From NCBI GenBank assembly GCA_001725325.1, contig MEFY01000002.1:1925559-1989558 (forward strand): DNA of 64,000 nucleotides. The letters run 5' to 3'. Positions 32,325 through 47,610 of this stretch are shown piece by piece; within the stretch, counting starts at the first letter, position 1; each line of letters starts with the position of its first letter. Position numbers and translations under genes: made by a program. The notes beneath the pieces were generated by a model. The model worked only from the letters and a program-made list of their open reading frames with translations. It had not been told where the DNA came from and made no database searches. This DNA is from Leifsonia sp. SCN 70-46. GTDB taxonomy: Bacteria > Actinomycetota > Actinomycetes > Actinomycetales > Microbacteriaceae.

Positions 32325-32398
32325 GGGTCCATGGCGCAGCCCGGTAGCGCACCTGCATGGCATGCAGGGGGTCAGGGGTTCGAATCCCCTTGGATCCA
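32325..32398 (+). tRNA. tRNA-Ala(GGC)
   Basis: A 74-base cloverleaf. The acceptor GGGTCCA pairs with TGGATCC and carries the G3-U70 pair that specifies alanine. The D-arm is GCGC..GCGC, the anticodon stem is CCTGC/GCAGG with loop ATGGCAT (anticodon GGC), and the T-arm is AGGGG-TTCGAAT-CCCCT. Discriminator A; the 3' CCA is not encoded. Confidence 0.97.
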
Positions 32399-32403
32399 CA
32401 GCG

Positions 32404-32462: not shown

Positions 32463-32488
32463 TGGATCGATTCAATTTGGGCTACTCT
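32463..32488 (+). promoter_or_regulatory. lacI-type gene promoter with operator 1
   Basis: TGGATCGATTCA (32463-32474), one base from the TGAATCGATTCA consensus of this locus, lies between the expected -35 region and the -10 box TACTCT (32483-32488). The -10 box is 6 bases from the ATG. Autorepression is likely. Confidence 0.7.
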
Positions 32489-32494
32489 GTCTGC

Positions 32495-33502
32495 ATGATC
32501 GGCGACCGACCTCGCACACCCGTCACCATCGGCGATGTCGCACAGCACATCGGTGTGTCGAAGGCCACGGTGTCGTACGCGTTGACGCGCCCGGACAGGC
32601 TGTCTGCCGACATGCTCGGACGAGTCACGGCGGCCATAGAAGAGCTCGGCTACGTGCGCAACAGCGTTGCTCGACAGTTGCGCGTGGGTCGCAGCCAGGC
32701 GGTGGCGTTCATCGTGTCGAATGCGGCCAACCCTCTGTACAGCGAATTGGCCCTCGGTGCCGAAGCCGAAGCATCGAAGACGGGTCACGTCGTCCTGATC
32801 GCAGATAGTCATGAAGACCCGCGCCGAGAACGGGAGTACATCTCCTTCTTCGAGTCCCAGCAGGTGAGCGGGATCATGATCGCTCCCGTGGAGGATGTGC
32901 CCCAGGAGCTCATCGACGTTGGCCAGCGAGGCACTCCCTTCGTGCTCATCGGATCGCCACCGACCCCTCAGGCGTATCCTTCGATCTCCGGCGACAATGT
33001 GCTGGGCGGCGAACTCGCCACGCGCCACCTCCTGGATCAGAACCGGCGACGGCTGATCTTCGTGGGGGGAACCCATCTCAACGTTGACTCCCGGCGCGCG
33101 GGTGCGCGCCGGGCGCTCGAGGGTCGGCGCGACGTGTCGCTTGAGTTCATCTCCGTCGAGCGTCAGACCGCTGGGGTGGGAGAGGAGGTCGCGCGCGATC
33201 TGCTCTCACGCGGTGAGCTGCCCGACGGGATCTTCGCCGGAAACGACCTGCTTGCCCTCGGCATTCTCAACGTCCTGATCACCGCGGGGATCGCTGTGCC
33301 CGGCCAAGTGTCGCTCGTCGGCTACGACGACATCGAGTTCGCCGGATTCTCCATAGTCCCCCTGACCACCATCCGGCACCCTTCGACAGTCGTCGGGGCG
33401 AGTGCGATTCGGATGATCCTCGGTCAGGAGGAAGAGCTCCACGAGGTGGATCCGAGGTTCGCCCCGCACTTGGTGGTGCGGGGCACCTCGCTCCCGACCT
33501 AG
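32495..33502 (+). CDS. LacI family transcriptional regulator
   Basis: A 335-residue repressor. The helix-turn-helix and hinge helix are at residues 10-60 (TIGDVAQHIGVSKATVSYALTRPDRLS); the sugar-binding periplasmic-protein-like domain follows (NPLYSELALGAEAEA; GIFAGNDLLALGIL; VSLVGYDDIEFAGF). The start is the ATG at 32495, not the track's 32357, which lies inside the tRNA. Five TGAATCGATTCA-like palindromes in the island fit the symmetric sites of this family. The inducer is probably an oligosaccharide from the lyase. Confidence 0.93.
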   Translation: MIGDRPRTPVTIGDVAQHIGVSKATVSYALTRPDRLSADMLGRVTAAIEELGYVRNSVARQLRVGRSQAVAFIVSNAANPLYSELALGAEAEASKTGHVVLIADSHEDPRREREYISFFESQQVSGIMIAPVEDVPQELIDVGQRGTPFVLIGSPPTPQAYPSISGDNVLGGELATRHLLDQNRRRLIFVGGTHLNVDSRRAGARRALEGRRDVSLEFISVERQTAGVGEEVARDLLSRGELPDGIFAGNDLLALGILNVLITAGIAVPGQVSLVGYDDIEFAGFSIVPLTTIRHPSTVVGASAIRMILGQEEELHEVDPRFAPHLVVRGTSLPT

Positions 33503-36500
33503 TGAACTTCGACCTCGCTGAACTGCATGCGGTACAGGTTGCTGTCCAGCGGGTTGGGCCGCAAATGCGTCCCCGTGATTCGGATCGCGGCCCCCGCCAC
33601 GGGCGTGAATGTCACATGCTGTGTGCCCTCCGGCACGGCATAGGCGGTCGGACCCAGGATGGTCGTCCAGCCCGACGTCCCGTCCGGCGACACTTCGATC
33701 ATCAGTTCTGACGGGAAACCGTGCTGTCCGTTGTGGATCACGGGCGACAGGTCGATTGATGAGAACGTCTTGGAGGAGCCCCAGTTGATCGTGATCGCCT
33801 CCACGTGGTCGCTGGTGAGCGAGCTGTTGCTGCTCCAGCCGTAGCTCGAGGGCAGGCTCCCGCGTAGGCCGTCCGTCACCCGGTTCGCGCCCCAGCCGGA
33901 GCCGCCGTAGGGCGGTGTGCTCGTCGTCACACTCGCGCCGTAGGCGATGTTCGCGTTGCGTACCTCGATCTCCGCGAGTTGGGCCCGATAGAGGTTGCTG
34001 TCGTACGGATTAGGACTCAGCGACGAGAAGGTGAGCCTAATGTACCGCGCATCCACCGAGGGGAAGGTGGTCCGCGAGCCGGTCGCCGTCGCGGTCGTAG
34101 TGGCTGAAACGACCCCCGTCCCGGTCCACGGACCGTTGGTGGCGGACGCCTCGACGGTCACGCCCCCGGGGAACGATGCCTCACTGCCCCACCTGCCGGC
34201 GAAGAGATCAACGGTGTTGAACGTCGAGGTGGCACCGAGGTCGTAGACGACATTCTCGCTGTGGGGCGACCCTGTGTTCGAACTGCTGGACCAGCCCATC
34301 GAGACGGGGGTGGACTCCCGGTCGCCGTCCGTCAGGTTGGCGACGCCCCACACCGGACTGGCCACGACGCTGCTTTGAGAGAGCGGGGACCTACCCAGGA
34401 TGAGGTTCGTGTCGAACGGAGCACCTCCGGCATAGGAGAAGGACGCCTCCAGCGGAGTGCCGGCGGTGCCATTCACCCGGGCAGAGAGTTTGATGGTCGG
34501 GCTGAGCTGCGTGACGGTGATGCGCGGATCAACCGAGCCGATGCCGAACGCGGCGCGCGCGATCTCGACCTCGATGGTCCCACCATTCACCTGGGTCGGA
34601 TCGGAGAGGGAGACCGATATGCCCGTCGCTGTCTCGCGGGTCATCACCGAGGCCTTCTTGGTGCTGGAGACGAAGTTCGTGCCGCCGACCTTGACCCACG
34701 TGGGCGTGTCGGTCCAGAAGTTCGCGCCCACGACATTCGATGCGGTGCTCTTGACTGCCTGGACGGTGGTGTCGTTGGCGAGCACGACATAGGTCGGGTT
34801 CGCGGCGAATGCCTTCGTCTGGCTCGCAGTCTTACCCGGCAGCAGCGCGTAGGAGTACGCGCCGTTGGTCGGAGCTTCGCCGTGTTTGACGCTGATTGTC
34901 AGATAGGTCGCCGACAGTGGAGCTGAGCTCTGGCCCGCGGAGTTGATGTCCGCCCACGCGCCCGTGTTCGTCTTTCGTGTGAGGGTGAGGTCCTGCCCGC
35001 CCGGGAAGTAGTAGCCGATATCGGATCCGGCGGTCGCGCCGGTGATGTGGGCCCATTGGACGCCAGTCGAGTCCTGAGTCCACGGCACGGTCGTCGGCTT
35101 GGCGGCGTCGTCGACCGTGAGCACCGTCGACGTGGTGATCTTGCGGTTCTCCACCGTCGTCTCGATCTGTCTACCGGCGTCGGTCGAGGTGATTCCCGCG
35201 CCCAGCGCGACGACCGCGTCATCGAAGGTGAACCACGACTTCTTGGCGACGAGCGAGCTCGCCACCGCGGCGAAGTCCATCCCCGTCGCACCATAAAGGC
35301 CCTGCAAGGATGTACCGCCCACCCAGTTCTTCGTCGTCACCTGCGACTCGTTGGAACCGGGACCGCGGACGAACGTAGTATCGGTAGTCGTCCCAGGGCG
35401 GCGGTAGGGATCGATGGTCGGCTGGTAGGCGCCGCTGAACTGGCCCAGGTCCGAGTTGTAGAGGAACGTCTGCCCATCGGCGCTGAACCAACCACGCTTG
35501 TTCTCGCTGCCGTTCGTTTCGAAGTTCGCCATGCGATTGGACGTCATCGCGATGCCGAACGCCCATCCCGGGCGCTGGTGGACGGCCTGCGCGATGCTCG
35601 GGAACTGCTTGTTGACGGAGAGTGCCGGGCGGACCGGCACCGTGGCGTCTGCCATGATCGCGCGCGAGAGGGTGATCACGTGCAACGGGGCATCGATGAA
35701 GTAGTCCCGGAACGTGTCGGCTGTGATCCAGGTCTTCACCATCGACCTGAAGGCAACAGCGTCGGCTGCCGGCGCGTACTGGGAGAGTAGGACGATCGAC
35801 TGCATGATGATGTGCCCGGCCACGTGCTCATCCGAGTCGCGCGAGATGTTGCGACCTCTGGTCATGTCGAATACCGCGCCGCGCCACATGAGAGGCTCGA
35901 CGGTGTCGTAGATCCACCGGTAGACGTTGGGCAGCTGCGGACCGGAAAACGCCCACGTCGAGTCCTGGAGAGTGAAGTAGAGGCGCGAGAACGTGTCGAG
36001 CAAGTTCACGCCGTAGCCACCGAGGTACGAGAACTTCGTATGCTGCACGTAGCCCCCGTCGAGGAAGAATCCGCCCTCGCCTCCCGCCACATAAGGCAGT
36101 ACACGTGAGGCCTCGCTCGCGCCCTGTGTTACCAGCGCGCTGTCCTTGAGCAGGACTCCCCGGAGTGCCTTGATGGTCGCGCGCCACACCTGGTTGGCAC
36201 CGGTGTCGGAGTAGCTGCTGGGTGTCTGATAGGCGATTGCCGCCATGTAGTTCGAGACCTGCGTGCTCGTCAGCTGCGAGTATGAGAGGACCGTGATGTC
36301 GGTGAGCGCCAGCGGCACGCCGATCTGAAGCTGCCACCACCATGCCGACGGCTTCGCAGTCGTCGTGTTGTAGTACTTCGTGTGCATCCAGTCGAGGCCG
36401 CCCTTGATCGAGGTCATGAGGGCGGTCGAGTGGTAGGTCGACGTGCCGACGGTGGCCCATCCCAGAGTCATGTCCCGCAGGCGGTTGTAGGTCGTCACGA

Positions 36501-36801
36501 GATCGTTGTAGTTCGTCGCGGGTACGAGGTCGCTCCACAGTGTCGTCGTGGGGGAGCTGATCATCGACCCCGCGGTGCTCGACGCCGTCGCGCCCACAGC
36601 CGCGATGCGGGAAGCGATGACCGTGTCGCTCGTGTTGAGCGATGCCCCTCCGGTGAGCAGGAGCTCCCACTTCGCGCGGACGTCGTCGAAGGTGTCGGCC
36701 GCACGGGCGGGGGGCGCGCCCTGCAGCGACGTGAAGAGCAGCGCGAGAACGGTTGCTGTGGCGGCAAGTATGGGAAGGCGAGCACGGGTGTGCGACATCA
36801 T
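33499..36801 (-). CDS. Secreted polysaccharide lyase family 8 with two discoidin domains
   Basis: About 1100 residues. A Sec signal peptide ends near PPARA-AD. The alpha/alpha toroid carries all expected PL8 catalytic residues: Asn in TGANQVWR (~203), His in GGYVQHTKFSY (~254), Tyr in GGYGVN (~263) and Arg in DMTRGRNISR (~315). Middle and C-terminal beta domains follow, then two tandem F5/8 type C domains (~800-945 and ~950-1100). PL8 enzymes cleave hyaluronan, chondroitin or xanthan by beta-elimination; the substrate is undecided. The aromatic patch reads WWWQLQIG instead of the usual WW(D/N)xEIG. Start at the first ATG after GAGGA. Confidence 0.93.
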   Translation of the reverse strand: MMSHTRARLPILAATATVLALLFTSLQGAPPARAADTFDDVRAKWELLLTGGASLNTSDTVIASRIAAVGATASSTAGSMISSPTTTLWSDLVPATNYNDLVTTYNRLRDMTLGWATVGTSTYHSTALMTSIKGGLDWMHTKYYNTTTAKPSAWWWQLQIGVPLALTDITVLSYSQLTSTQVSNYMAAIAYQTPSSYSDTGANQVWRATIKALRGVLLKDSALVTQGASEASRVLPYVAGGEGGFFLDGGYVQHTKFSYLGGYGVNLLDTFSRLYFTLQDSTWAFSGPQLPNVYRWIYDTVEPLMWRGAVFDMTRGRNISRDSDEHVAGHIIMQSIVLLSQYAPAADAVAFRSMVKTWITADTFRDYFIDAPLHVITLSRAIMADATVPVRPALSVNKQFPSIAQAVHQRPGWAFGIAMTSNRMANFETNGSENKRGWFSADGQTFLYNSDLGQFSGAYQPTIDPYRRPGTTTDTTFVRGPGSNESQVTTKNWVGGTSLQGLYGATGMDFAAVASSLVAKKSWFTFDDAVVALGAGITSTDAGRQIETTVENRKITTSTVLTVDDAAKPTTVPWTQDSTGVQWAHITGATAGSDIGYYFPGGQDLTLTRKTNTGAWADINSAGQSSAPLSATYLTISVKHGEAPTNGAYSYALLPGKTASQTKAFAANPTYVVLANDTTVQAVKSTASNVVGANFWTDTPTWVKVGGTNFVSSTKKASVMTRETATGISVSLSDPTQVNGGTIEVEIARAAFGIGSVDPRITVTQLSPTIKLSARVNGTAGTPLEASFSYAGGAPFDTNLILGRSPLSQSSVVASPVWGVANLTDGDRESTPVSMGWSSSSNTGSPHSENVVYDLGATSTFNTVDLFAGRWGSEASFPGGVTVEASATNGPWTGTGVVSATTTATATGSRTTFPSVDARYIRLTFSSLSPNPYDSNLYRAQLAEIEVRNANIAYGASVTTSTPPYGGSGWGANRVTDGLRGSLPSSYGWSSNSSLTSDHVEAITINWGSSKTFSSIDLSPVIHNGQHGFPSELMIEVSPDGTSGWTTILGPTAYAVPEGTQHVTFTPVAGAAIRITGTHLRPNPLDSNLYRMQFSEVEVH

Positions 36802-36831
36802 CGTCGAGTCCTCAAGTCCCCGTCGATTCAT

Positions 36832-36845
36832 GTGAATCGATTCAC
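36832..36845. promoter_or_regulatory. LacI operator 2 (perfect palindrome) at lyase gene
   Basis: GTGAATCGATTCAC is a perfect 14-base palindrome. It lies just downstream of the lyase promoter, so bound repressor would act as a block to elongation. Confidence 0.8.
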
Positions 36846-36855
36846 GGTTGCGAGG

Positions 36856-36884
36856 AGACTACCGATCTTCTGACGCGTTGTCAA
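36856..36884 (-). promoter_or_regulatory. Promoter of the PL8 lyase gene
   Basis: On the minus strand TTGACA (36879-36884), a 17-base spacer and TAGTCT (36856-36861). It overlaps the end of the upstream gene, so the lyase can be transcribed separately. Confidence 0.75.
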
Positions 36885-38118
36885 TCGGTGCCCAGCCGTT
36901 GGCGCGCGCCACGACCGCGAGTGTCTCGTTCAACGGAGCGCGGGGGATGAAGTGACCGAAGGTGTCGTTCGCGAAGAACATCACCCCGTCGCATTCGGGC
37001 CCGAGCTCGCTGTAAACCTCGTGCTGGAACAGGAAGTGCCGACGGTCGTCCAGATGGATTCGGTACCAGTACCAGGGGTCGACGAAGTCCATGGCCATTG
37101 CGATCTCGACCCCTCCCGCGCGACGAGCGATGTCGAGCTTCCCCCGGAGGTTCGGACGAACGTTCATGCGCTCGACGAGCACGGCGAAGGTGGAGCAGAT
37201 GATGCCGTCCAGCATGGAGTAACTGTGCTCGCCCATGGCCCAGGCGCGGTCCTCGACGTCTGCGGGCCAAAAGGAGTCCTGCCAGTAGATCTTGCGCTCG
37301 CCGAAGTGCTCGCGCATCGTGGCGAAGAATGCTGCCACGCCCGCCCGCCGTTCCGGGGTCGGCTCGGGCGCGGATCGGGGATCCCACAGCCCCAGCAAGC
37401 CGAACTGGTTTCCGAGCTGGATGCCGTCGAGCCCGAGATCGCGGACGAAGGCGGCGGATTGACGCGCAATGAAGTCCATGGTCGCGGTTCCTTGAGGAAT
37501 CCCGTCCGGGAAGGAGGCATAGTGCCTCGGGTCCGCGTCGAGTGACGAGCAGACGTCAATGAGGCCTCGGGCGATGGTCCCGCCCGCGTCCGCGGAACCC
37601 CGGGCGGCTTCAGGATGGCGCAGGGTCTTCCACTCGGATGCGCAGAACTCCGGCCCTGGTTCGAGGTACTCGAGGAGCGTGAGGCGGATCCCGCGTTCGT
37701 CGGCAGCGCGCCTGAATGCCGCGTAGATGCTCGCCAGCACTCGGTAGTCGAGCACTGCCTCGCTCACGATGAACATCGGTCCGGCCATATAGGGATTGAA
37801 CGAGCGCTCGCCACCTTCGCGCACGCGCGAGGTCCAGTTCGCATTGTGAGCCAGCGGGTCGCTGTCGGGTCCGCCATAGCAGTTGTAGCGCGCCCAGTCG
37901 AAGGTGTCGTCATGGTGGCGATTGCCGCGGTAGTTCAGGATGTGGTCGCCGTTGCCTGAGGCGATGGTGAGAACCACCTCGTCAGCGCGCGAGAACCAGT
38001 CGGCGTAGTGGTCGAAGAACTCGCCCGCGCGCGCGTCGGGGCTGGCGGGATCGGCGAAGATCTTGGGCGTCACCCAGGGGTAGACCTTGCGGTAGGGGGG
38101 CGAGGCTTGCGTCGTCAC
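36859..38118 (-). CDS. Unrecognised TIM-barrel-like protein, possible novel glycoside hydrolase
   Basis: A 419-residue protein without a signal peptide, hence cytoplasmic. Regular strand-helix alternation and acidic strand ends suggest a barrel: VVLTIASGNGDH, LTLLEYLEPGPEF, LGLDGIQLGNQFG, KIYWQDSFWP, and GGVEIAMAMDFVDPWYWYR. Many Trp/Tyr and Asp/Glu residues would suit sugar binding. I do not recognise the family. Start at GTG 5 bases after AAGGAG; the track ATG is 9 codons earlier. Its own LacI-controlled promoter and position beside the lyase suggest it processes imported oligosaccharides. Confidence 0.7.
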   Translation of the reverse strand: MTTQASPPYRKVYPWVTPKIFADPASPDARAGEFFDHYADWFSRADEVVLTIASGNGDHILNYRGNRHHDDTFDWARYNCYGGPDSDPLAHNANWTSRVREGGERSFNPYMAGPMFIVSEAVLDYRVLASIYAAFRRAADERGIRLTLLEYLEPGPEFCASEWKTLRHPEAARGSADAGGTIARGLIDVCSSLDADPRHYASFPDGIPQGTATMDFIARQSAAFVRDLGLDGIQLGNQFGLLGLWDPRSAPEPTPERRAGVAAFFATMREHFGERKIYWQDSFWPADVEDRAWAMGEHSYSMLDGIICSTFAVLVERMNVRPNLRGKLDIARRAGGVEIAMAMDFVDPWYWYRIHLDDRRHFLFQHEVYSELGPECDGVMFFANDTFGHFIPRAPLNETLAVVARANGWAPIDNASEDR

Positions 38119-38180
38119 TGAAGCTCCTTGAGAAAGTTGCCCCACCGCGGACCTGGCACGGGCGGTGGGGCGGGTGCGAT

Positions 38181-38209
38181 GCTATATCAATCGATTCACA
38201 AAGCGCCAA
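38181..38209 (-). promoter_or_regulatory. Promoter of the unknown barrel gene with LacI operator 3
   Basis: On the minus strand TTGGCG (38204-38209), 17 bases, TATAGC (38181-38186). TCAATCGATTCA (38187-38198), one mismatch from consensus, fills the spacer. Confidence 0.7.
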
Positions 38210-38240
38210 CCCATGGCCTCGTGCGCGTGAGCGGGTCGTC

Positions 38241-38297
38241 TTGACAATCGATTTGCGAGCGCCATACGATGCACTCGTTCTCGCTTGAATCGATTCA
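38241..38297 (+). promoter_or_regulatory. Promoter of the sugar ABC operon with LacI operators 4 and 5
   Basis: TTGACA (38241-38246), 18 bases, TACGAT (38265-38270). A weaker box ACAATCGATTTG (38244-38255) overlaps the -35, and a perfect TGAATCGATTCA (38286-38297) lies about 10 bases after the predicted start. Two sites could allow tighter repression. Confidence 0.75.
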
Positions 38298-38319
38298 CAA
38301 AGAAGTGTCAGGAGATTGA

Positions 38320-39249
38320 TTGCCCGCCCTCGTCGCAACTCCCCGGACCCCGGGCTCCCGCCGTCGCGCTCAGAGTCTCAGCGGCCCGAGCCGATGGACG
38401 CTGTTCTTCGCACTGCCGGCAGTGGCCCTCTACTGCTTCGTGCTGGTCGTTCCGACCGTGCGCGGAGCAGGGTTCGCGTTCACCGATTGGGACGGGATCA
38501 GCCGTGCGATCGAGTGGGTGGGCTTCGACAACTTCGCCCGGGTGGTGACCGATCCTGACTCGCTCGCCGCGTTCGGCGTCACCCTCCTGATCGCTGGGGC
38601 GGTCACGGTCGTGCAGAACACCCTCGGTATGCTGCTCGCACTCGGCGTCAACTCCCGCATCCGATCGCGGAACATCCTCCGCGTACTCCTGTTCGCCCCG
38701 GCGGTCATGACGCCCGTCGTCACCGCCTACGTGTGGAAGTACATCCTCGCCCCCGACGGAGTGCTGAACGGGGTCCTCGACGGCATCGGCCTGCCGGCAC
38801 TCAAGCAGAGCTGGCTCGGCAGCCCGCAATGGGGCCTCGTTTCCATCATGCTCGTCATCGTGTGGCAGTTCTCCGGCTATTCCATGGTGATCTTTCTGGC
38901 GGGACTGCAAGGTGTCCCCACCGAGGTCGTCGAGGCCTCGATCATGGACGGTGCCGGCCCCGTCCGACGGTTCTGGTATGTCGTGCGCCCCTTCCTCGCG
39001 CCTGCCATCACGATCAACCTCATGTTGAGCGTCATCGGGGGCCTGAAACTCTTCGACCAGGTCTTCATCCTCACCGGTGGGGGACCAGGGGGGTCCACGA
39101 ACACCCTGTCGACGTTGATCTACAAGAACGCGTTCACCTTCGGGGAGTTCGGCTACAGCATCGCCATGGCCATCGTGCTCACCCTTCTCGTCGCCATCAT
39201 CTCCAGCGTGCAATACCGGGGCCTCTCCAAGAACGAGGCGCGAGGATGA
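38320..39249 (+). CDS. Sugar ABC transporter permease (CUT1, MalF type)
   Basis: A 309-residue inner-membrane permease with six helices. The EAA loop that contacts the ATPase reads VVEASIMDGAGPVRRFWYVVRPFL, and the N-terminal FDNFARVVTDPD segment is typical of MalF-type subunits. TTG start with AGGAG 5 bases upstream. The stop overlaps the second permease by 4 bases. First gene of a LacI-controlled operon. Confidence 0.93.
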   Translation: MPALVATPRTPGSRRRAQSLSGPSRWTLFFALPAVALYCFVLVVPTVRGAGFAFTDWDGISRAIEWVGFDNFARVVTDPDSLAAFGVTLLIAGAVTVVQNTLGMLLALGVNSRIRSRNILRVLLFAPAVMTPVVTAYVWKYILAPDGVLNGVLDGIGLPALKQSWLGSPQWGLVSIMLVIVWQFSGYSMVIFLAGLQGVPTEVVEASIMDGAGPVRRFWYVVRPFLAPAITINLMLSVIGGLKLFDQVFILTGGGPGGSTNTLSTLIYKNAFTFGEFGYSIAMAIVLTLLVAIISSVQYRGLSKNEARG

Positions 39250-40067
39250 AACGCTACTCCCTCCGGACGTTCGTGCTCGAGGTCGTGATGATCGCCGTCA
39301 CCGCGCTCTTCGCCTTTCCCCTCTACGTGCTCGTGAACCTGTCCCTTCGCACGGCTGACGACCCCACGCCGGACGTGCTGCCCACCCTCAGCCCCACATT
39401 CGAGAACTACGTCGAGGCGTGGAACCAGGCGGGTCTTGGCAGCGCCATGGTCAACAGCCTCATCGTCACCGTGGCGAGCGTCGCGCTCGTCGTCGTCGTC
39501 TCGGCCCTTGCGGCGTACCCGCTCGTGCGCCTCACATCGAGGTTGTCGTCGGTCGTCTTCTGGTTCGTTCTGGTCGGGCTTCTCCTTCCCTTCCAGGTCG
39601 CGCTGATCCCCCTGTACCAGACCATGCGCGACCTCGGCCTGCTCGGATCGGTGGTCTCGCTCATCCTCTTCTACGCTGGCTTGCAGGTACCGTTCTCCGT
39701 CTTTCTCTACGCAGGGTTCCTTCGCGCACTTCCTCGGGAGTACGAGGAGGCGGCCTCCGTGGACGGTGCCAACACCTGGACCTCGTTCTGGCGCGTGGTC
39801 TTCCCGATGCTTCGTCCGGTGACCGGGACCGTCGTCATCCTCAACGCGATCTTCGTCTGGAACGACTTCCTCACACCGCTGCTCTACCTGAGCGGAAGCG
39901 AGCAGCAGACGATACCGGTCGCCTTGTACACATTCCTCGGGCAGTACGTATCGAACTGGCCGCTCGTATTCGCAGGCCTCGTGATCGGGCTCGCGCCGAT
40001 CCTCGTGGCCTACTTCCTCATGCAGAGGTCGATCATCCACGGATTCGCGGGCGGCCTCAAGGGGTGA
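39246..40067 (+). CDS. Sugar ABC transporter permease (CUT1, MalG type)
   Basis: A 273-residue partner permease with six helices and the EAA motif YEEAASVDGANTWTSFWRVVFPML. Segments FPLYVLVNLSLR and LTPLLYLSGSEQQTIPVAL are typical of MalG-type subunits. It begins at the ATG overlapping the first permease stop; the track start at 38733 is a shadow extension. No ATP-binding gene follows, so a shared MsmX/MsiK-type ATPase encoded elsewhere is probably used. Confidence 0.94.
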   Translation: MKRYSLRTFVLEVVMIAVTALFAFPLYVLVNLSLRTADDPTPDVLPTLSPTFENYVEAWNQAGLGSAMVNSLIVTVASVALVVVVSALAAYPLVRLTSRLSSVVFWFVLVGLLLPFQVALIPLYQTMRDLGLLGSVVSLILFYAGLQVPFSVFLYAGFLRALPREYEEAASVDGANTWTSFWRVVFPMLRPVTGTVVILNAIFVWNDFLTPLLYLSGSEQQTIPVALYTFLGQYVSNWPLVFAGLVIGLAPILVAYFLMQRSIIHGFAGGLKG

Positions 40068-40169
40068 TCGAAGCCCGAACCTGATGTAGCGCGGGCTGTC
40101 GGCCCACGTGACAACCCGGACCGTCTACCGACGATCCGTCCCCACCAAGAAAGCAAGAAGAGGAGTTCC

Positions 40170-41438
40170 ATGAACACGAGGCGAACAGCGCTGTTTGCAG
40201 CGACCGCCGTGGTGGCGGCCCTGGCGACCACCGCGTGCAGCAACGGGGGAGGAGGGTCGTCGTCGACCGTCCTGTCCATCGCGTCCACGACCGATGCGAA
40301 GGCGGCGGTGGAGGAGGCCATTGCTGCGTTCGAGGCCGAGAACCCCGGCGTCGAGGTGAAGGCGACGTATGCGGAGACCGACTCCCTGGTGACGACCCTG
40401 CGCACTCAGCTCTCCTCGGGCACCGCGCCCGACGTGCTGACCGTCTGGCCCGGCTACGGCAACGCTATGGGCATGCGCGTCCTCCAGGAGAACGGGTATC
40501 TGGCCGACCTCTCCGACGAGGCCTTTGCGGCGAAGATCCCCTCCGGCCTCCAGGGCCTCTCACAGGTCGACGGCAAGAGCTGGGTGTTGCCGCTCACCGT
40601 CGTCGGTATCGGCGCGATCTACAACGAGCAGGCGGTGGAGGCGGCCGGTGCCGAGATCCCGACGACCTTCGACGAGGTGCTGGACTTCTGCGACGCAGCA
40701 ACCGCTGCGGGCAAGGTGGCCTTCGCGCTCGGCAACCAGGCGGCCTGGGTCACGCAGCTCGTGAACTACGCGCTCGTTCCCACGACGGTGTTCCAGAAGG
40801 AGCCTGACTTCGACGCCAAGATGGCGGCCGGCGATGCCACGTTCGTCGACTCCGGGTGGACTACCGCGTTCGACGAGTACATGGAGATGAACAGCCGAGG
40901 ATGCTTCACCGCCGACTCCCTCGGAACGTCGTTCGAGGCGACGACGGCTCAGGTCGCCGCGGGTGACGCCCTCGCGGTGGTCCAGGTGACCTCGGTGCTC
41001 CCCGGCATTCGCGACCAGGCGCCCGCGGGGACGACCTTCAGCATGTTCGCCCTTCCTGGTGACGACGACGCCGAAGACACCTGGATGCCTGCAGCGCTCG
41101 GATTCAGCCTCGGCGTGAATGCCGCTTCGAAGAATCAGGAGCTCGCGAGGAAGTTCATCGACTTCATGGCGTCCGACAAGGCGATGGCTTCGTTCGCGAC
41201 GACATCCGGGTCGCTTCCGGCGCTGCCCACCGACGCATTTGAGGCCGACCCGGCTCTGCAGATCCTCGTCGACTTCCAGGCGGAGGGGCGTACCTATCCC
41301 TTCATGGACCAGTTCTGGCCTAACGCCAAGGTCCAGCAGGAGCACCTCGACGGCGTGCAGAAGGTGTTCGCCGGCACGGCGACCATTGACGACGTCCTGG
41401 CTGCGATGGACGCGGCCTACGCGGAGGGCGTGAAGTAG
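40170..41438 (+). CDS. Sugar ABC transporter substrate-binding lipoprotein
   Basis: A 422-residue family 1 solute-binding protein. The lipobox LATTAC has its Cys near residue 23 and is followed by a Gly/Ser linker, so it is anchored to the outer face of the membrane. Family segments are FEAENPGVEVKATYAE, PDVLTVWPGYG and QVDGKSWVLPLTVVGIGAIYNE. AGAGGAG lies just upstream of the ATG. It presumably binds oligosaccharides released by the lyase. Confidence 0.94.
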   Translation: MNTRRTALFAATAVVAALATTACSNGGGGSSSTVLSIASTTDAKAAVEEAIAAFEAENPGVEVKATYAETDSLVTTLRTQLSSGTAPDVLTVWPGYGNAMGMRVLQENGYLADLSDEAFAAKIPSGLQGLSQVDGKSWVLPLTVVGIGAIYNEQAVEAAGAEIPTTFDEVLDFCDAATAAGKVAFALGNQAAWVTQLVNYALVPTTVFQKEPDFDAKMAAGDATFVDSGWTTAFDEYMEMNSRGCFTADSLGTSFEATTAQVAAGDALAVVQVTSVLPGIRDQAPAGTTFSMFALPGDDDAEDTWMPAALGFSLGVNAASKNQELARKFIDFMASDKAMASFATTSGSLPALPTDAFEADPALQILVDFQAEGRTYPFMDQFWPNAKVQQEHLDGVQKVFAGTATIDDVLAAMDAAYAEGVK

Positions 41439-41448
41439 AAGGACGACC

Positions 41449-41480
41449 GGCGGCGGCCGCGCGCTCGCGCGGCCGCCGCC
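41449..41480 (+). terminator. Long GC stem-loop between binding protein and esterase genes
   Basis: GGCGGCGGCCGCGCG and CGCGCGGCCGCCGCC are perfectly complementary with a two-base centre, ending in TT, 24 bases before the next ATG. It is probably a partial terminator or mRNA-stabilising hairpin that keeps binding-protein levels above those of the esterase. Confidence 0.7.
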
Positions 41481-41503
41481 TTGGCGTGAGGAAGGACGAG
41501 CTT

Positions 41504-42652
41504 ATGACCCCGTTGGGACCGGTGGCCGAATCCGTCATCCGTGAGTCTGTTCGCGGAGCGGCCGACATCGTAGCGCCGGGAGTGACGCCCGTGCGCCTAC
41601 CCGCGTGGGCCACCGCACAGATGGCGGAAGGGTTCTCGCGCGTGGTCGCCGACCATACGGCTGGAGTGCGCCTGGACCTCGAGACAGCCGCTTCTGTCCT
41701 TGAGCTCGAGGTCTCCCTGGCTCGGTATCTGTCGCCCGACATGGCTCATCATTCTGCGAGGTCCGTGTTTGCCGTGACGGACGATAGCGGCGTCCTCTGC
41801 GAGGTGGCGACCACCGCCGGATCACGAGTAGTCGAGCAGTCCGACCGCAGTGTGGCCGTCGCGGACGGCGGCATCGTGACTATCCAACTTGAACTCGAGC
41901 CGGCCTCCGAGGCGCGACGCGTGCAGGTTTGGCTGCCGCACAACTCGGCGGTGACCATCCACAGCCTCAGAGCCGATCGGCCGGTGGAAGCACACGCGCC
42001 GGCCGGGTCCCGATGGGTCCACCACGGCAGTTCGATAAGCCACTGCCTCGATGCGCACGGTCCGTTGGGGGCATGGCCGGTGCTCGCCGCCCGGAGCCTC
42101 GGGCTCGAACTGACCGATCTCGGTCTCGCCGGCAATTCCATGCTCGACCCGTATGTCGCCCGCACGATCCGCGACCTGCCGGCTGACCTCATCACTCTCA
42201 AGGTGGGGATCAACATCGTCAACGGCGACTCATTCACGGAGCGCACGCTCGTACCGGCGCTTCATGGCTTCATCGACACGGTGCGGGAGGGCCACCCTGA
42301 AGTGCCCTTCGTCGTCATGTCGCCGGTCTGGTGCGGGATCCATGAGGACACAGCCGGACCTACCAGTTTCGACCCGATCACGATGATGTGCTCCGCTCTC
42401 GGAACGGGTGATCTGACCTTGGCGCGGACCCGCGAGATCGTCGAACGAGTCGCCCGCGCGCGGGCGGCAGCCGACGCCCGGCTGTTCGTCCTAGACGGGC
42501 GCGAGTTGCTGTCGGCCCGCGATGCTTCCCATCTCTGGGACGGCCTGCACCCGGACCACGAAGGGTACGCGATCATGGCCGATCGCTTCGTGTCCCTCGC
42601 GAGATCCGGCGAAGGGCCCGTGGCGACGGCTCTCGGGCTGGCGCGACGCTAG
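41504..42652 (+). CDS. SGNH/GDSL hydrolase with N-terminal beta domain
   Basis: A 382-residue protein. Block I is WVHHGSSISHC (nucleophile Ser near residue 172), block II is LGLAGNSMLD with Gly/Asn, and the catalytic Asp-His block is LWDGLHPDHEGYAIMAD. The first 165 residues form a beta-rich domain (VRLDLETAASVLELEVSL), as in several carbohydrate esterases. No signal peptide. A role in removing acyl groups from imported sugars is likely. Start at ATG after GAAGGA. Confidence 0.88.
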   Translation: MTPLGPVAESVIRESVRGAADIVAPGVTPVRLPAWATAQMAEGFSRVVADHTAGVRLDLETAASVLELEVSLARYLSPDMAHHSARSVFAVTDDSGVLCEVATTAGSRVVEQSDRSVAVADGGIVTIQLELEPASEARRVQVWLPHNSAVTIHSLRADRPVEAHAPAGSRWVHHGSSISHCLDAHGPLGAWPVLAARSLGLELTDLGLAGNSMLDPYVARTIRDLPADLITLKVGINIVNGDSFTERTLVPALHGFIDTVREGHPEVPFVVMSPVWCGIHEDTAGPTSFDPITMMCSALGTGDLTLARTREIVERVARARAAADARLFVLDGRELLSARDASHLWDGLHPDHEGYAIMADRFVSLARSGEGPVATALGLARR

Positions 42653-42655
42653 GCG

Positions 42656-43543
42656 TCAGGGGCGAAGCGCCGGACTGGAGAACCGGCTCGGCGCCTCGCC
42701 ATGCACAGCCTTGAAAGCCCGCGAGAAGTGAAGTGGATCGTCGAACCCCACGCGCAAGGCGACTTCGCGGACCCGCAGACTGCTGCTTCGCAGAAGATGA
42801 GCCGCCTCCGCCATGCGCTGGGCCCGCGCCCAGCTCTGGACGGACATGCCGGTGTGCTTCCGGAACAGGCGCTCGGCCGTCGCGCTGCTGCAGCCGCCGA
42901 CATCCGAGATCTCCTCGAGCCGCGGGTGAGCGTCCAACCGGCGCGTGATGTACTCCATCATCGCCCGCAGCGCGGCCGGAAACGGGGGAGGGGTCGACGC
43001 CCATGATCTCGCCTCATCGAGCAGTAGGCGTCCGAGCGCGCGCATGACTGCCTCGTCGGGAGCAGGACCGGCGAAACGGCTCACCGCGTATTCCGCGATT
43101 CCGACGAGCGCGTCCTCCGCCGGCGTCGAGCGATGGAGCAGCACGGGATGGCGCGGCAACGCCCCGCCTTCTCGGAAGTCGGCGTCGAGCAGCGGATCCC
43201 CGGGCAGGTGGGCAACCCGCGCTTCGACCACCTGCGCGTGAGCATGGGCGGGCACGAGGTGCACGGTGCCTATCTCGAACGGCTTCACAGCGTCGGCTCG
43301 GTAGATCGCCTCGTGCATCCAGGGCATGAGCACGATGCTGCCGGCACCCACTGCGAACCGCCGTCCGTCGACGGTCACATCGCCGACACCACGCCGCACC
43401 CAGAGCACGCAGACGCTGCCCACACGCCGATTGCGGATCACCTCCGAGCCGTGGAACTGGTAATGGTTCGCCCACACGACGGCTGCGCTTGGTTCCTCCA
43501 TGAATCGATCATCCCAGAGGACATATCTGTGCGGAATATCCAT
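42656..43543 (-). CDS. AraC family transcriptional regulator
   Basis: About 295 residues. An N-terminal cupin-like sensor (GDVTVDGRRFAVGAGSIVLMPWMHEAIYRAD) precedes the C-terminal double helix-turn-helix (LEEISDVGGCSSATAERLFRKHTGMSVQSWARAQRM; VREVALRVGFDDPLHFSRAFK). The track start at 43873 runs through the divergent ferredoxin gene; the ATG giving MDIPHRYVLW is the likeliest start, though no clear ribosome site is seen. Divergent from the P450 operon, which it probably activates in response to a sugar. Confidence 0.85.
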   Translation of the reverse strand: MDIPHRYVLWDDRFMEEPSAAVVWANHYQFHGSEVIRNRRVGSVCVLWVRRGVGDVTVDGRRFAVGAGSIVLMPWMHEAIYRADAVKPFEIGTVHLVPAHAHAQVVEARVAHLPGDPLLDADFREGGALPRHPVLLHRSTPAEDALVGIAEYAVSRFAGPAPDEAVMRALGRLLLDEARSWASTPPPFPAALRAMMEYITRRLDAHPRLEEISDVGGCSSATAERLFRKHTGMSVQSWARAQRMAEAAHLLRSSSLRVREVALRVGFDDPLHFSRAFKAVHGEAPSRFSSPALRP

Positions 43544-43557
43544 GAAATGCGTGCCAT

Positions 43558-43600
43558 AGATCTGCACCCTCCCCCTCGCGCTGCCTAGCGTTGAGATCTG
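43558..43600. promoter_or_regulatory. Direct repeats upstream of the P450 operon
   Basis: AGATCTG at 43558-43564 and 43594-43600, each followed by (C)ACCC, 36 bases apart in the AraC/ferredoxin spacer. Direct repeats suit an AraC-type activator. TAGCGT between them could be a -10 box. Confidence 0.45.
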
Positions 43601-43621
43601 ACCCGACGAGAGGACAACACA

Positions 43622-43813
43622 GTGCAGATTCATGTTGATGCGGTCGCCTGCGTCGGTGCGGGCCAGTGCGCGCTGGTCGCCGGCTCGCTGTTCGACCAGG
43701 ACGATGACGGCATAGTCGTCCTCCTCGACCCGAACCCCGATCCCCGCGAAGAGGCGCTCGTGCGACGAGCGGCGTCGCTCTGTCCGGCGCGCGCTATCGT
43801 CGTCGATGACTGA
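43622..43813 (+). CDS. [3Fe-4S]-type ferredoxin
   Basis: A 63-residue ferredoxin typical of those that serve bacterial P450s. Three cluster cysteines are visible: VACVGAGQC (two) and SLCPARAI (third), with Ala/Gly where the fourth Cys of a 4Fe-4S type would be. GTG start with GAGAGGA 7 bases upstream. Overlaps the reductase gene by 8 bases. Confidence 0.93.
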   Translation: MQIHVDAVACVGAGQCALVAGSLFDQDDDGIVVLLDPNPDPREEALVRRAASLCPARAIVVDD

Positions 43814-44981
43814 CAGGACGTTGCGGGAGCAGGACCGGGTCGTTGTCGTGGGCGCAGGCGCGGCCGGAGCCACGGCGGCCGTCGAGCTTCGGCGTCACGG
43901 CTTCCGAGGTCGGGTCGTCCTCGTGGGCGGTGAGCCGCATCCGCCCTACGCCCGGCCGCCGCTCTCGAAGAACGTGCTGGCCGGACCAGATGAGTCTGCC
44001 GACTTGTACACCGAGCAGGAGCTCCGATCGCTCGACATCGAGTTCCGGACCGCCACCGTCGCGCTCGGGCTCGATGTCGCCTCCGGGCGCCTGAGGTTGT
44101 CCCAAGGGCTGCTGGAGTTCGACCACCTCATCATCGCCACAGGTGTCGCCGCTCGCCGTCCGGCATGGGCTCGAGGCGACGGGGTCCACTTGCTCCGCAC
44201 GCGCGACGATGTCGCCGGCCTGCTGTCCGACCTCAGAGAGGGCGGGCCTGCGGTTATCGTCGGCGGCGGGGTGCTGGCTTCAGAAGCGGCATCGACGCTC
44301 GCCGCGACTCGCGAGTGCGCCCTCGTGGTGCGGGGAGGTGAGCTTCGCCTGGGTGCGGTGGGCGGTGCCTTCTCCTCGAGGATCATCGACCTGCACGAGT
44401 CGCATGGGGTCGGTGTGCACCTGCAGGAGCATGTCGACACCGTCCTAGCTCAGGGACGGGGTCTGGAGATCCGCACGCAGCATCATCGCCACAGGGCGGA
44501 TGCCGTGGTGGTCGCGGTGGGATCGCAGCCCGCTGTCGAATGGCTGTCGGGCACCGGGATCGGCGGTCCCGACGGTGTGTTGTGCGATGCCGCCGGCCGC
44601 GCCAGTTCCACGGTTTCCGCGGTGGGGGACGTCGCAGCATGGTGGGATCCCGTCGCCCAGAGGCATGTGCGTGTCGAACACCAGTCGGCCGCTCTCGAGC
44701 ACGCATCGATCGTCGCGCAGCGCCTCCTCAACGGGGTCTGCCCCGATCCGCCTGTCCCGTTCTTCTCGTCGGAGCTGTACGGCACTCGGATTCAGATATG
44801 CGGGCGTTTCGGACCCGGAGCACCCTGGGACTATGTTCACGGGGCGCCGGGCGCAGCCTCGTTCGTGGCGCTCGCGACGACGGGAGCGCTTCGGGGCCTC
44901 GTGGGGTGGGATGCGCCGCGCGCATTCCGTGAGGCCCGACGAGCCAGGCCCGATCTCATGCCAGCTATCGCAACGCACTGA
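43806..44981 (+). CDS. FAD/NAD(P)H-dependent ferredoxin reductase
   Basis: A 391-residue reductase of the putidaredoxin-reductase type. The FAD Rossmann motif is VVVVGAGAAGATAAVELRRHG, followed by ARPPLSKNVL, the NAD(P) motif VIVGGGVLASEAAS, and the FAD-contacting STVSAVGDVAAW. It passes electrons to the ferredoxin encoded upstream and on to the P450 downstream. Confidence 0.94.
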   Translation: MTDRTLREQDRVVVVGAGAAGATAAVELRRHGFRGRVVLVGGEPHPPYARPPLSKNVLAGPDESADLYTEQELRSLDIEFRTATVALGLDVASGRLRLSQGLLEFDHLIIATGVAARRPAWARGDGVHLLRTRDDVAGLLSDLREGGPAVIVGGGVLASEAASTLAATRECALVVRGGELRLGAVGGAFSSRIIDLHESHGVGVHLQEHVDTVLAQGRGLEIRTQHHRHRADAVVVAVGSQPAVEWLSGTGIGGPDGVLCDAAGRASSTVSAVGDVAAWWDPVAQRHVRVEHQSAALEHASIVAQRLLNGVCPDPPVPFFSSELYGTRIQICGRFGPGAPWDYVHGAPGAASFVALATTGALRGLVGWDAPRAFREARRARPDLMPAIATH

Positions 44982-44998
44982 ACAAGGAGTTCGAAGAG

Positions 44999-46180
44999 AT
45001 GAGCGGATGCCCGCGACACCACCCCATCACCATCCCCACGGATGGAACGCCGTTGGCACCGTCGCCCACCCTTGCCGAGCTTCGGGAGGACTCGGCGGCG
45101 GTCCCGCTTCTCTACGAGGACGGCACGACAGGATGGCTCGTGACCCGCTACGATCTCGCGCGGTCCGTGCTGGAAGACCCTCGTTTCTCGCAGCTGCCGC
45201 AACGCATGCCGGCTGGGGACGGCTCGGTGGCGGAACTCGATGTCGACAGTGACGCGCGCGCCGCCCGACAGGCGGGCAACCTGCTCGCCCTCGACGGCGA
45301 TCAGCACTCGAAGATCCGCCGTGCGATCACCAGCCGCTTCTCGGTCCGCGCAGTTCGCGCCGAGCGGGAGGCGGTGACCGCCATCGTCTCGCAGCAGCTC
45401 ACCAGCATGCTCGCGCTCGGCAACCGTGCGGACCTGCTGGCGGACTACGCCGAACCCATCTCAGCCGCAGTGCACCGTCACGTGCTTGGCATCCCCGAAG
45501 ACCTCGCTTCCGAGTTCGACCGCATCTTCGTGCACGGTGCTCCGGACCAGGATGCCTTCGACTTCACGCGGACGGTTCTCTCTCGCGCGGAGACGGAGCC
45601 TGGCGACGATGTGTTGGGCGACCTCGTGCGTTCGGCGCTCTCTCCGGCAGAGCGCGAGGGCGTCGCGCACGTCCTCATGACCTCGGGGCGGGACTCCGTC
45701 GCCTACCTCATCGTCACGAGCGTCGTGGCCCTGCTGGGGCATCCCGATCAGCTCGGACGCCTTCGAGCAGACCCGTCGCTCCTAGCGCCCGCGTTGGAGG
45801 AGTTCCAGAGGTTCGGCACCATGTTCGTCTCGCTCTTCCCCCGCACCGCGCTGGAGGACGTGCAGCTAGAGGGGATGATCGTGCGCGCGGGGGAGTCGGT
45901 CTCCGTCTCCCCGGTCGCAGCCAACCGGGACCCTCGTCGATTCAGCTATCCCGACATCCTCGACACCGCTCGTGATTCGTTCGGCCACCTCGGCTTCGGG
46001 CACGGCATACACGGTTGCGTGGGACAGCAGCTCGCCCGGCTGGAGGTGACCGAGGCCCTGACGCAGCTTCTCTCAGCCCTTCCTTCCCTCGCTCTGGTAT
46101 CTGCCGAGCAACTGCGTCCGGGAGCGTTCGCGCATCCAGTGCCGATCTACGCCGCAGGAAGCGCCATCGTCTCGTGGTGA
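44999..46180 (+). CDS. Cytochrome P450, soluble class I
   Basis: A 393-residue bacterial P450. The heme-thiolate loop FGHGIHGCVGQQLAR is near residues 333-347 (Cys ~340), ExxR is in LEEFQRFG, and the I-helix reads VLMTSGRDSVAYLI, with Asp-Ser instead of the usual Asp/Glu-Thr. AAGGAG lies 8 bases before the ATG. With its own ferredoxin and reductase it forms a complete mono-oxygenase. Substrate unknown; the polysaccharide context suggests oxidative demethylation of an O-methyl sugar as one option. Confidence 0.93.
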   Translation: MSGCPRHHPITIPTDGTPLAPSPTLAELREDSAAVPLLYEDGTTGWLVTRYDLARSVLEDPRFSQLPQRMPAGDGSVAELDVDSDARAARQAGNLLALDGDQHSKIRRAITSRFSVRAVRAEREAVTAIVSQQLTSMLALGNRADLLADYAEPISAAVHRHVLGIPEDLASEFDRIFVHGAPDQDAFDFTRTVLSRAETEPGDDVLGDLVRSALSPAEREGVAHVLMTSGRDSVAYLIVTSVVALLGHPDQLGRLRADPSLLAPALEEFQRFGTMFVSLFPRTALEDVQLEGMIVRAGESVSVSPVAANRDPRRFSYPDILDTARDSFGHLGFGHGIHGCVGQQLARLEVTEALTQLLSALPSLALVSAEQLRPGAFAHPVPIYAAGSAIVSW

Positions 46181-46194
46181 TCGCCTCGGGGCTG

Positions 46195-46200
46195 TACCGT
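46195..46200 (+). promoter_or_regulatory. -10 box of hexapeptide-repeat protein gene
   Basis: TACCGT precedes the ATG at 46207 by 6 bases. It lies at the right-hand edge of the accessory island. Confidence 0.5.
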
Positions 46201-46206
46201 CGAGCC

Positions 46207-46797
46207 ATGCTCGTAGAACACCGCGGAAGCCGTCCGACAGTCCACCCCGACGCGTGGGTAGCGCCCACGGCCTCCGTGATCGGCGATGTGACGGTCGGCG
46301 CGGGCGCGCGCATCCTGCACGGTGCCGTGGTGACGTCGGAGGACGGCAGCATCAGCATCGGCGTCGACACGGTCGTGATGGAGAACGCCCTCGTGCGGGC
46401 GCGTGCCGGCCACGACGTCGTGATCGGGTCGGGCGTCATGATCGGGCCGCACGCGCACGTCAACGGCGCGAGGATCGGCGACGGGGTGTTCGTCGCGACG
46501 GGCGCGTCGCTCTTCCCGGGCAGCTCCGTGGGGGAGGGGGCCGAGGTGCGCATCAACGCCGTGGTGCAGGTCAACACGCGGCTCGACCCGGGGGCCGTGG
46601 TGCCCATCGGCTGGGTGGCGGTGGGGGAGGCCATCCTGCCGCCCGACAAGCACGACGAGATCTGGGAGATCCAGCGCGGGCTGGACTTCCCCGGGACGGT
46701 CTACGGGGTGGATCGAGACACGACGATGGCGGAGCTCATGCGGCGCCAGTCGGAGTTCTACGGCGCGCACCGCGACGACGCGGTGGTGGAGAGCTAG
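46207..46797 (+). CDS. Left-handed beta-helix (gamma-carbonic-anhydrase-like) protein
   Basis: A 196-residue hexapeptide-repeat protein (HPDAWVAPTASVIGDVTVGAGARI, GSGVMIGPHAHVNGARIGDGVFVATGASLFPG) of the PaaY/CaiE/gamma-CA group, which form trimers with metal at subunit interfaces. Histidines at the expected positions include GPHAHVN. Start at the ATG 6 bases after TACCGT; the track start at 46015 lies in the P450 gene. Codon bias returns to the core pattern here. Confidence 0.9.
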   Translation: MLVEHRGSRPTVHPDAWVAPTASVIGDVTVGAGARILHGAVVTSEDGSISIGVDTVVMENALVRARAGHDVVIGSGVMIGPHAHVNGARIGDGVFVATGASLFPGSSVGEGAEVRINAVVQVNTRLDPGAVVPIGWVAVGEAILPPDKHDEIWEIQRGLDFPGTVYGVDRDTTMAELMRRQSEFYGAHRDDAVVES

Positions 46798-46952
46798 CCG
46801 GCGCTGACCGCGCGCAGCGGCGGGTACTCGACGGCGTCGAGGCGGTACAGCTCCTCGAGCATGCGGCTCATGGCCTCGGTGGTGAGCTCGGCGGCCTTCT
46901 GGGCGTCGCGGTCGGGCGTGTGCAGGCGATTGGTCCAACGGTTCGTGTCCAT
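46794..46952 (-). CDS. Small 52-residue protein, absent from the ORF track
   Basis: The minus-strand ATG at 46952 has AGGAGG 6 bases upstream and an in-frame TAG at 46794-46796. The product starts MDTNRWTNRLHTPDRDAQKA and contains a helical EAMSRMLEELYRLDAVEYPP segment. Codon bias is strong. It converges on the beta-helix gene with 4 shared bases. No family recognised. Confidence 0.75.
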   Translation of the reverse strand: MDTNRWTNRLHTPDRDAQKAAELTTEAMSRMLEELYRLDAVEYPPLRAVSAG

Positions 46953-47031
46953 GACTGCCTCCTCACCAAGAGAGACCGGCGAACATGCCGGTTATGACGG
47001 GAACTCTACTCCCTTTGTGCCCCCCGTTGGA

Positions 47032-47066
47032 GTGACGTCACATCGGCGTGTCGGCGCTCCTAGACT
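47032..47066 (+). promoter_or_regulatory. Promoter region of the PEBP-like gene with palindrome
   Basis: TAGACT (47061-47066) is 7 bases from the ATG. A perfect palindrome GTGACGTCAC (47032-47041) overlaps the expected -35 position and could be an operator. Confidence 0.4.
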
Positions 47067-47073
47067 GGTGCGC

Positions 47074-47610
47074 ATGTCACCCCGCTGGCTCGGCCGCCTG
47101 CTCGACAGCAGCCACGCCGACGCGTCGCTGAGCGCCTGGAACATCCTCGACTCGCCGCGCGACCTCATCCTCACGAGCACGTCCTTCGACGACGGCGGCG
47201 CTCTTCCGCGCCGGTTCGCGGGCAGGGGCGTCGGCGACAACGTCTCGCCCGCGCTCTCGTGGAGCGGCGTCCCGGTCGAGGCAGACCACCTGGTCGTCAT
47301 CGTCGAGGATGTCGACGTGCCGCTCGCACGTCCGCTCATCCACAGCCTGAGCATCCTCGACGCAGACGCGGTGGGCGTCCCTGAAGGCGGCCTCGCCGCC
47401 GGCGCCCCGGACGTCACGCACCTGCGCACGCTGCAGGGCCGCGGCTACCAGGGACCGCGGCCGATAGTCGGGCACGGGCCGCACCGCTACCGGTTCATGG
47501 TCTTCGCGGTCGAGGGCGACATCGACACGTCGTCGACGAGGCACGCCGTCGAGTCGATGGTCGGTCGGGTCGTCGCGCGCGGCAGGCTCGTCGGCACCTA
47601 CGAGCGCTAG
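47074..47610 (+). CDS. YbhB/YbcL (PEBP-like) family protein
   Basis: A 178-residue phosphatidylethanolamine-binding-protein fold member. Visible segments are NVSPALSWSGVP, VVIVEDVDVPLARPLIHSL and GPHRYRFMVFAVEGDID. Bacterial members bind small anions or lipids and have no settled role. The start is the ATG 7 bases after TAGACT; the track start at 46861 lies antisense to the small gene. The end overlaps the antiporter stop by 4 bases. Confidence 0.9.
   Translation: MSPRWLGRLLDSSHADASLSAWNILDSPRDLILTSTSFDDGGALPRRFAGRGVGDNVSPALSWSGVPVEADHLVVIVEDVDVPLARPLIHSLSILDADAVGVPEGGLAAGAPDVTHLRTLQGRGYQGPRPIVGHGPHRYRFMVFAVEGDIDTSSTRHAVESMVGRVVARGRLVGTYER

Follow-up and report, generated by a model that had tools for sequence, protein, structure and literature searches.

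P450 demethylation of 6-O-methyl-galactose is known (PMC10033563), and the P450 sugar demethylation that we found in the literature is confined to marine porphyran degraders. In the porphyran loci of Zobellia and Formosa, which act on 6-O-methyl-D-galactose, a P450 lies with its ferredoxin and reductase amid glycan-catabolic genes (PMC10033563). The locus analysed here has the same three components in such surroundings, but it is actinobacterial, carries an AraC regulator, and has relatives with GH78/rhamnose neighbours. A literature search for rhamnosidases combined with a P450, or for P450 sugar demethylation, returned nothing on rhamnosides.

In this study, we propose that the locus consists of two separately regulated catabolic modules and that its P450 would oxidize a rhamnoside-derived sugar, most likely by O-demethylation; we put the probability of this reading at roughly 0.4. 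If true, a rhamnoside-tied actinobacterial P450 clade would be a lead on the recycling of methylated glycans of plants and algae, such as those with the 3-O-methyl-rhamnose of mosses and ferns, and the opening of methylated sugars to catabolism by P450s would extend beyond the marine porphyran degraders.

Borders and composition of the island

The window (the whole stretch of 64,000 nucleotides that was analysed, C2:1925559-1989558) belongs to a two-contig genome of 3.12 Mb. Third-position GC is 0.77-0.88 in the genes from the LacI regulator to the P450, compared to 0.95-0.98 in the genes on either side (ObgE, ProB, ProA, Kef). Based on this low third-position GC and a start directly 3' of a tRNA-Ala gene (Table 1), the block of about 14 kb and foreign composition reads as a laterally acquired island. 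No integrase was noticed, and the tRNA region and the right border have no exact repeat of 11-20 bases in common that could mark attachment repeats. Just to the right of the island follow genes of the hexapeptide (gamma-carbonic-anhydrase-like) and PEBP types (window 46015-46797 and 46861-47610).

The sequence-only reading had named a PL8 lyase with discoidin domains, an importer, an SGNH esterase, an AraC regulator, a ferredoxin, a reductase and a P450, all of which are present in the window with the right borders. It had combined them into a single polysaccharide-use island, yet the LacI operators and comparative genomics divide the island into two modules that are not one system, module 1 (32463-42652) and module 2 (42656-46180). 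These meet tail to tail, each with its own regulator.

Table 1. Features of the island and its left border (window positions)
Feature	Position	Strand	Basis or remark
tRNA-Ala (GGC)	32325..32399	+	ARAGORN; left border of the island
LacI-type palindrome TGGATCGATTCA	32463..32474	.	20 bp ahead of LacI start
LacI-family regulator	32495..33502	+	Pfam LacI and Peripla_BP_3; start MIGDRP...
PL8 lyase, xanthan-lyase-like, two C-terminal discoidin repeats	33499..36831	-	Pfam, homology, self-alignment
Perfect LacI-type palindrome TGAATCGATTCA	36833..36844	.	directly before PL8
Unclassified TIM-barrel protein, 428 aa	36859..38145	-	no Pfam/NCBIfam family; predicted model
LacI-type palindrome TCAATCGATTCA	38187..38198	.	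in divergent promoter
AATCGATT core	38246..38253	.	adjoins TTGACA of predicted promoter (38241-38270)
Perfect LacI-type palindrome TGAATCGATTCA	38286..38297	.	in divergent promoter
Sugar ABC permease 1	38320..39249	+	Pfam BPD_transp_1
Sugar ABC permease 2	39246..40067	+	Pfam BPD_transp_1
Sugar-binding lipoprotein (SBP)	40170..41438	+	Pfam SBP_bac_1
SGNH/GDSL esterase, SsfX3-like	41486..42652	+	domain search and homology
AraC-family regulator	42656..43501 or 43543	-	starts MEEPS at 43501, MDIPH at 43543
Conserved element TGTGCGGAATATCCATGAAATGCGTGCC, putative AraC-type site	43528..43555	.	TCCAT 83 bp before ferredoxin
[3Fe-4S]-type P450 ferredoxin, 63 aa	43622..43813	+	Pfam Fer4_15; CXXAXXC...CP
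NAD(P)H ferredoxin reductase, HcaD-like	43806..44981	+	Pyr_redox_2
Cytochrome P450, rhamnoside-linked clade	44999..46180	+	domain search, motifs, tree

Module 1: lyase, importer and LacI-type sites

The PL8 lyase contains Lyase_8_N, Lyase_8 and Lyase_8_C, all above the Pfam cut-off (E 4e-68 and 2e-60 for the Lyase_8 domains), and by inspection it retains the catalytic motifs TGAN, VQHT, GGYG and RGRxISR. Xanthan lyases score 620-650 bits, compared to at most 298 bits for chondroitin/hyaluronate and other PL8 lyases. The protein is thus nearest to the xanthan lyase subgroup, with cleavage of xanthan side chains as its predicted activity, and much more distant from the chondroitin and hyaluronate lyases. 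Its alignment with the xanthan lyases of Bacillus GL1 and Paenibacillus (PDB 2e24, 6f2p) is full-length across the three PL8 domains, but the island protein ends in two discoidin-like repeats. One is recognized by Pfam as an F5/8-type C domain, and the second emerges from self-alignment (score 208 compared to a shuffled maximum of 66). In addition, and different from those xanthan lyase systems, the whole host genome is devoid of GH88/GH105. Such enzymes are thereby ruled out as partners of the lyase, and the substrate of module 1 is therefore predicted solely from the PL8 subgroup.

The start of the LacI-family regulator was placed downstream of a longer open reading frame, from 32357, that would overlap the tRNA. 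No ABC ATPase gene was seen in the island. LacI-type palindromes with at most one mismatch occur eight times genome-wide, four of them in module 1, where they mark the LacI, PL8, TIM-barrel and ABC genes as putative LacI sites; they stop short of the P450 cassette. A LacI regulon common to both modules was considered and rejected, as the cassette has a single site nearby (43503, AATCGATC), of a kind found 9 times where chance predicts 6.6. Of the four palindromes outside module 1, one lies in the rhamnose locus of the host (L093 1430, C2:577330), where genes for a LacI regulator and an ABC ATPase flank the same perfect 12-base sequence as in module 1.

A counterpart of module 1 is found in a Propionicimonas MAG, where LacI, the TIM-barrel protein, permease 1, the SBP and the SGNH esterase share 61-85% identity and the gene order matches on both contigs seen (L034, L038). 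On these two contigs, PL8 is missing between the LacI and TIM-barrel genes and a P450 does not occur, which argues against the reading of the island as one unit.

Module 2: the P450 cassette and its clade

The P450 carries the heme ligand Cys340, the ExxR motif (E268-R271) and FGHGIHGCVG, and its predicted model has a pLDDT of 92. With the adjacent ferredoxin and FAD reductase it forms a three-component (class I) bacterial P450 system. The ferredoxin motif reads CVGAGQC...CP, within the class CXXA/GXXC(X)nCP (PMC6237146). An element around TCCATR...TGC occurs 81-141 bp before the ferredoxin gene in 8 of 9 cassettes (shuffled mean 0.04), a count of limited weight since the element was found post hoc and two of the loci are near-copies.

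Relatives of the P450 occur in five other genomes among 300 Microbacteriaceae at 48-56% identity, followed by a gap to about 34%; searches of the order and class add sixteen loci and bring the neighbourhoods of relatives to 21. Plasmid records yielded only P450s with identities of about 40% or lower. Within a larger P450 set, the 21 relatives and the window P450 (n=22) form a long-stemmed clade (support 100/100). Its members have the segments SGRD(S/T)VAY and TMFxTxFPRTA in common, also carried by the window P450, and 45 positions are conserved across the clade and absent from four comparison P450s. The segments taken as SRS1 core, SRS4, SRS5 and SRS6, with borders set by eye, reach a conservation of 0.75-0.81 compared to a protein average of 0.65, which suggests that the clade members have one shared substrate type. 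Most relatives keep the same ferredoxin and reductase.

Clustering with terpene or macrolide hydroxylases had been named as an outcome that would speak against a role in glycan use. The nearest solved P450s are indeed macrolide-/polyketide-type hydroxylases (StvP2, CYP105A1, PikC and EryF, CYP105/107-like), yet among the best 50 fold matches they share 29-35% identity, below the approximately 40% of CYP105/CYP107 membership, and their function is not transferable. The fold is the same, whereas CYP105/CYP107 proteins serve secondary metabolism and the present clade has its two characteristic segments. The demethylating P450s of Zobellia and Formosa belong to the CYP236 group. No CYP236 entry was recognized among the best 60 sequence or best 50 fold matches, a comparison that included no CYP236 reference sequence.

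Genomic neighbourhoods of the P450 relatives

GH78 and/or L-rhamnose isomerase (RhaI) lies within about 10 kb of the P450 in 11 of 21 relatives, compared to none of 28 control neighbourhoods taken around other P450s (homology search; Fisher p 1.2e-5, uncorrected for relatedness, with one lineage counted more than once). Sugar ABC genes follow the same pattern (14/21 and 0/28, respectively). The neighbourhoods mostly span 16-20 kb, one locus being joined from two stretches, and the sugar-gene association is seen in five families of the class, one of the genomes being 1.3 Mb in size (L145). The earlier proposal of a P450 in actinobacterial glycan catabolism thus gains support in the setting of GH78/rhamnose loci but not for the PL8 glycan: PL8 is absent from all 21 neighbourhoods. 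Among the 300 Microbacteriaceae the clade co-occurs with PL8 in this genome only, a weak observation with just five other P450 genomes.

Pfam bears out the GH78 assignment in six loci (L043, L072, L079, L082, L078 and L145) and not in L143. The closest relatives (L072/L073) have SBP-permease-GH78 blocks on both flanks. Three loci encode RhaI, two of which also encode RhaD and RhaB; the isomerase and the rhamnulose-1-phosphate (bifunctional) aldolase exceed the NCBIfam cut-offs, while the kinase has rhamnulokinase as its best model with a score under the cut-off. GH78/RhaI is not nearby in 10 of the 21 relatives, and a homology scan found no sugar genes near the P450 in L041, L074, L075 and L077.

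The cassette in the window has no GH78 or rhamnose pathway gene within about 10 kb; they are present elsewhere on the chromosome, with four GH78 genes, of which three lie at C2 0.45-0.57 Mb and the fourth at 1.76 Mb, and a RhaI-RhaD-RhaB set at 0.58 Mb. Mycothiol-dependent formaldehyde dehydrogenase gave 13 matches in the genome, none above the cut-off (best 210 compared to 513 bits).

Several features recur around the cassettes. An NHL/SMP30-like protein repeatedly adjoins it (L039 13040, L043 6955, L040 about 10401). In one family (L144, L146, L147) the cassette is accompanied by a sugar importer and an NHL-type protein; L144, the one examined of the three, additionally has a NAGLU alpha-N-acetylglucosaminidase-type glycosidase. 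In the 1.3-Mb actinobacterial genome (L145 9390-15401, 47% GC in the stretch), the P450 is three genes from GH78 with an ABC permease near, and the ferredoxin and reductase are not beside it.

Discussion

Module 1, under LacI control, would serve the breakdown and import of an acidic, probably mannose-containing polysaccharide. The secreted, xanthan-lyase-like PL8 enzyme would cut the polymer, the ABC importer would take up the products, the esterase would strip acyl groups and the TIM-barrel enzyme may assist. In module 2, under AraC control, electrons would pass from NAD(P)H via the reductase and the 3Fe-4S ferredoxin to the P450. A function of this P450 in glycoside catabolism is plausible because its relatives sit mainly in carbohydrate-catabolic loci, especially those with GH78/rhamnose genes. 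The clade appears to travel mostly with genes for imported rhamnosides, and its substrate would be a sugar or aglycone from such a rhamnoside. The P450 would oxidize the freed sugar, likely demethylating, for example, 3-O-methyl-rhamnose to rhamnose and formaldehyde, and the rhamnose would enter the isomerase/kinase/aldolase pathway, whose genes lie at another place on the chromosome. In bryophytes and ferns, arabinogalactan-proteins carry terminal 3-O-methyl-rhamnose (PMC6918356). We infer the O-demethylation step with a chance between roughly one third and two fifths, and prefer it since free rhamnose is what the neighbouring pathway uses, a methyl ether would need such a step and a precedent exists (PMC10033563). 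We tentatively propose a second and independently evolved route, in which an actinobacterial clade apart from CYP236 strips rhamnose or a similar sugar of its O-methyl groups.

Oxidation of the aglycone (flavonoid, terpenoid or saponin type), once GH78 has taken off the rhamnose, is the main rival and rather unlikely. GH78 often acts on plant glycosides, and the nearest solved P450s act on lipophilic natural products, but three of the relatives' loci encode the sugar pathway itself, aromatic or terpene catabolic genes were not noticed in the locus maps (in which not every gene was scanned), and the 1.3-Mb genome retains its P450 close to GH78. That the P450 O-dealkylates the glycan on which the adjacent PL8 lyase acts, as the sequence-only reading had it, appears improbable. 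The two modules do share one block of low third-position GC and may have arrived together, and demethylation of 6-O-methyl-galactose provides a precedent (PMC10033563); against it stand the lack of PL8 around all relatives, the LacI-type sites that end before the cassette, the tail-to-tail arrangement with separate regulators and the Propionicimonas module.

Actinobacterial P450s are commonly detoxification or biosynthetic enzymes, and the four loci in which no sugar genes were found nearby would suit a general P450 of this kind that landed here by chance. The strong contrast with the control neighbourhoods and the conserved substrate-recognition segments make this distinctly improbable. Oxidation of a rhamnoside-derived sugar in a separately regulated module thus remains our preferred reading. 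Counted against it are the relatives without GH78/RhaI, the family whose cassette is accompanied by a NAGLU-type glycosidase instead, the lack of a rhamnose gene beside the window cassette and of a mycothiol-dependent formaldehyde dehydrogenase above the cut-off in the genome, and the secondary-metabolism hydroxylases as nearest solved P450s.

An unclassified TIM-barrel protein

Directly upstream of PL8 and on the same strand lies a gene that the first inspection had passed over. The encoded 428-aa protein matches no family in Pfam or NCBIfam, and a PDB sequence search gave nothing significant. Its AlphaFold model (pLDDT 67, middling) shows strands alternating with helices as in a TIM barrel, and the best fold matches, weak with a TM of 0.3-0.5, are to glycosidases. 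The protein is probably a glycoside-active enzyme; a family assignment was dropped because of the middling model and the weak fold matches. Among 347 genomes of the order it occurs in this genome only, and 300 of the family yielded two distant relatives, with open frames of about 820-840 aa. Given its location beside PL8 in a genome without GH88/GH105, it may represent a new glycoside-active family. The motifs EPGPEF, DGIxLGNQFG, IYWQDSFWP and DFVDPWYWYR are conserved. Both distant relatives (about 820 aa; L114 7941-13617, L115 7802-13459) adjoin an SGNH esterase like that of the window, an L-rhamnonate-dehydratase-like enolase and an amidohydrolase, and in L115 a GH78 is also present nearby.
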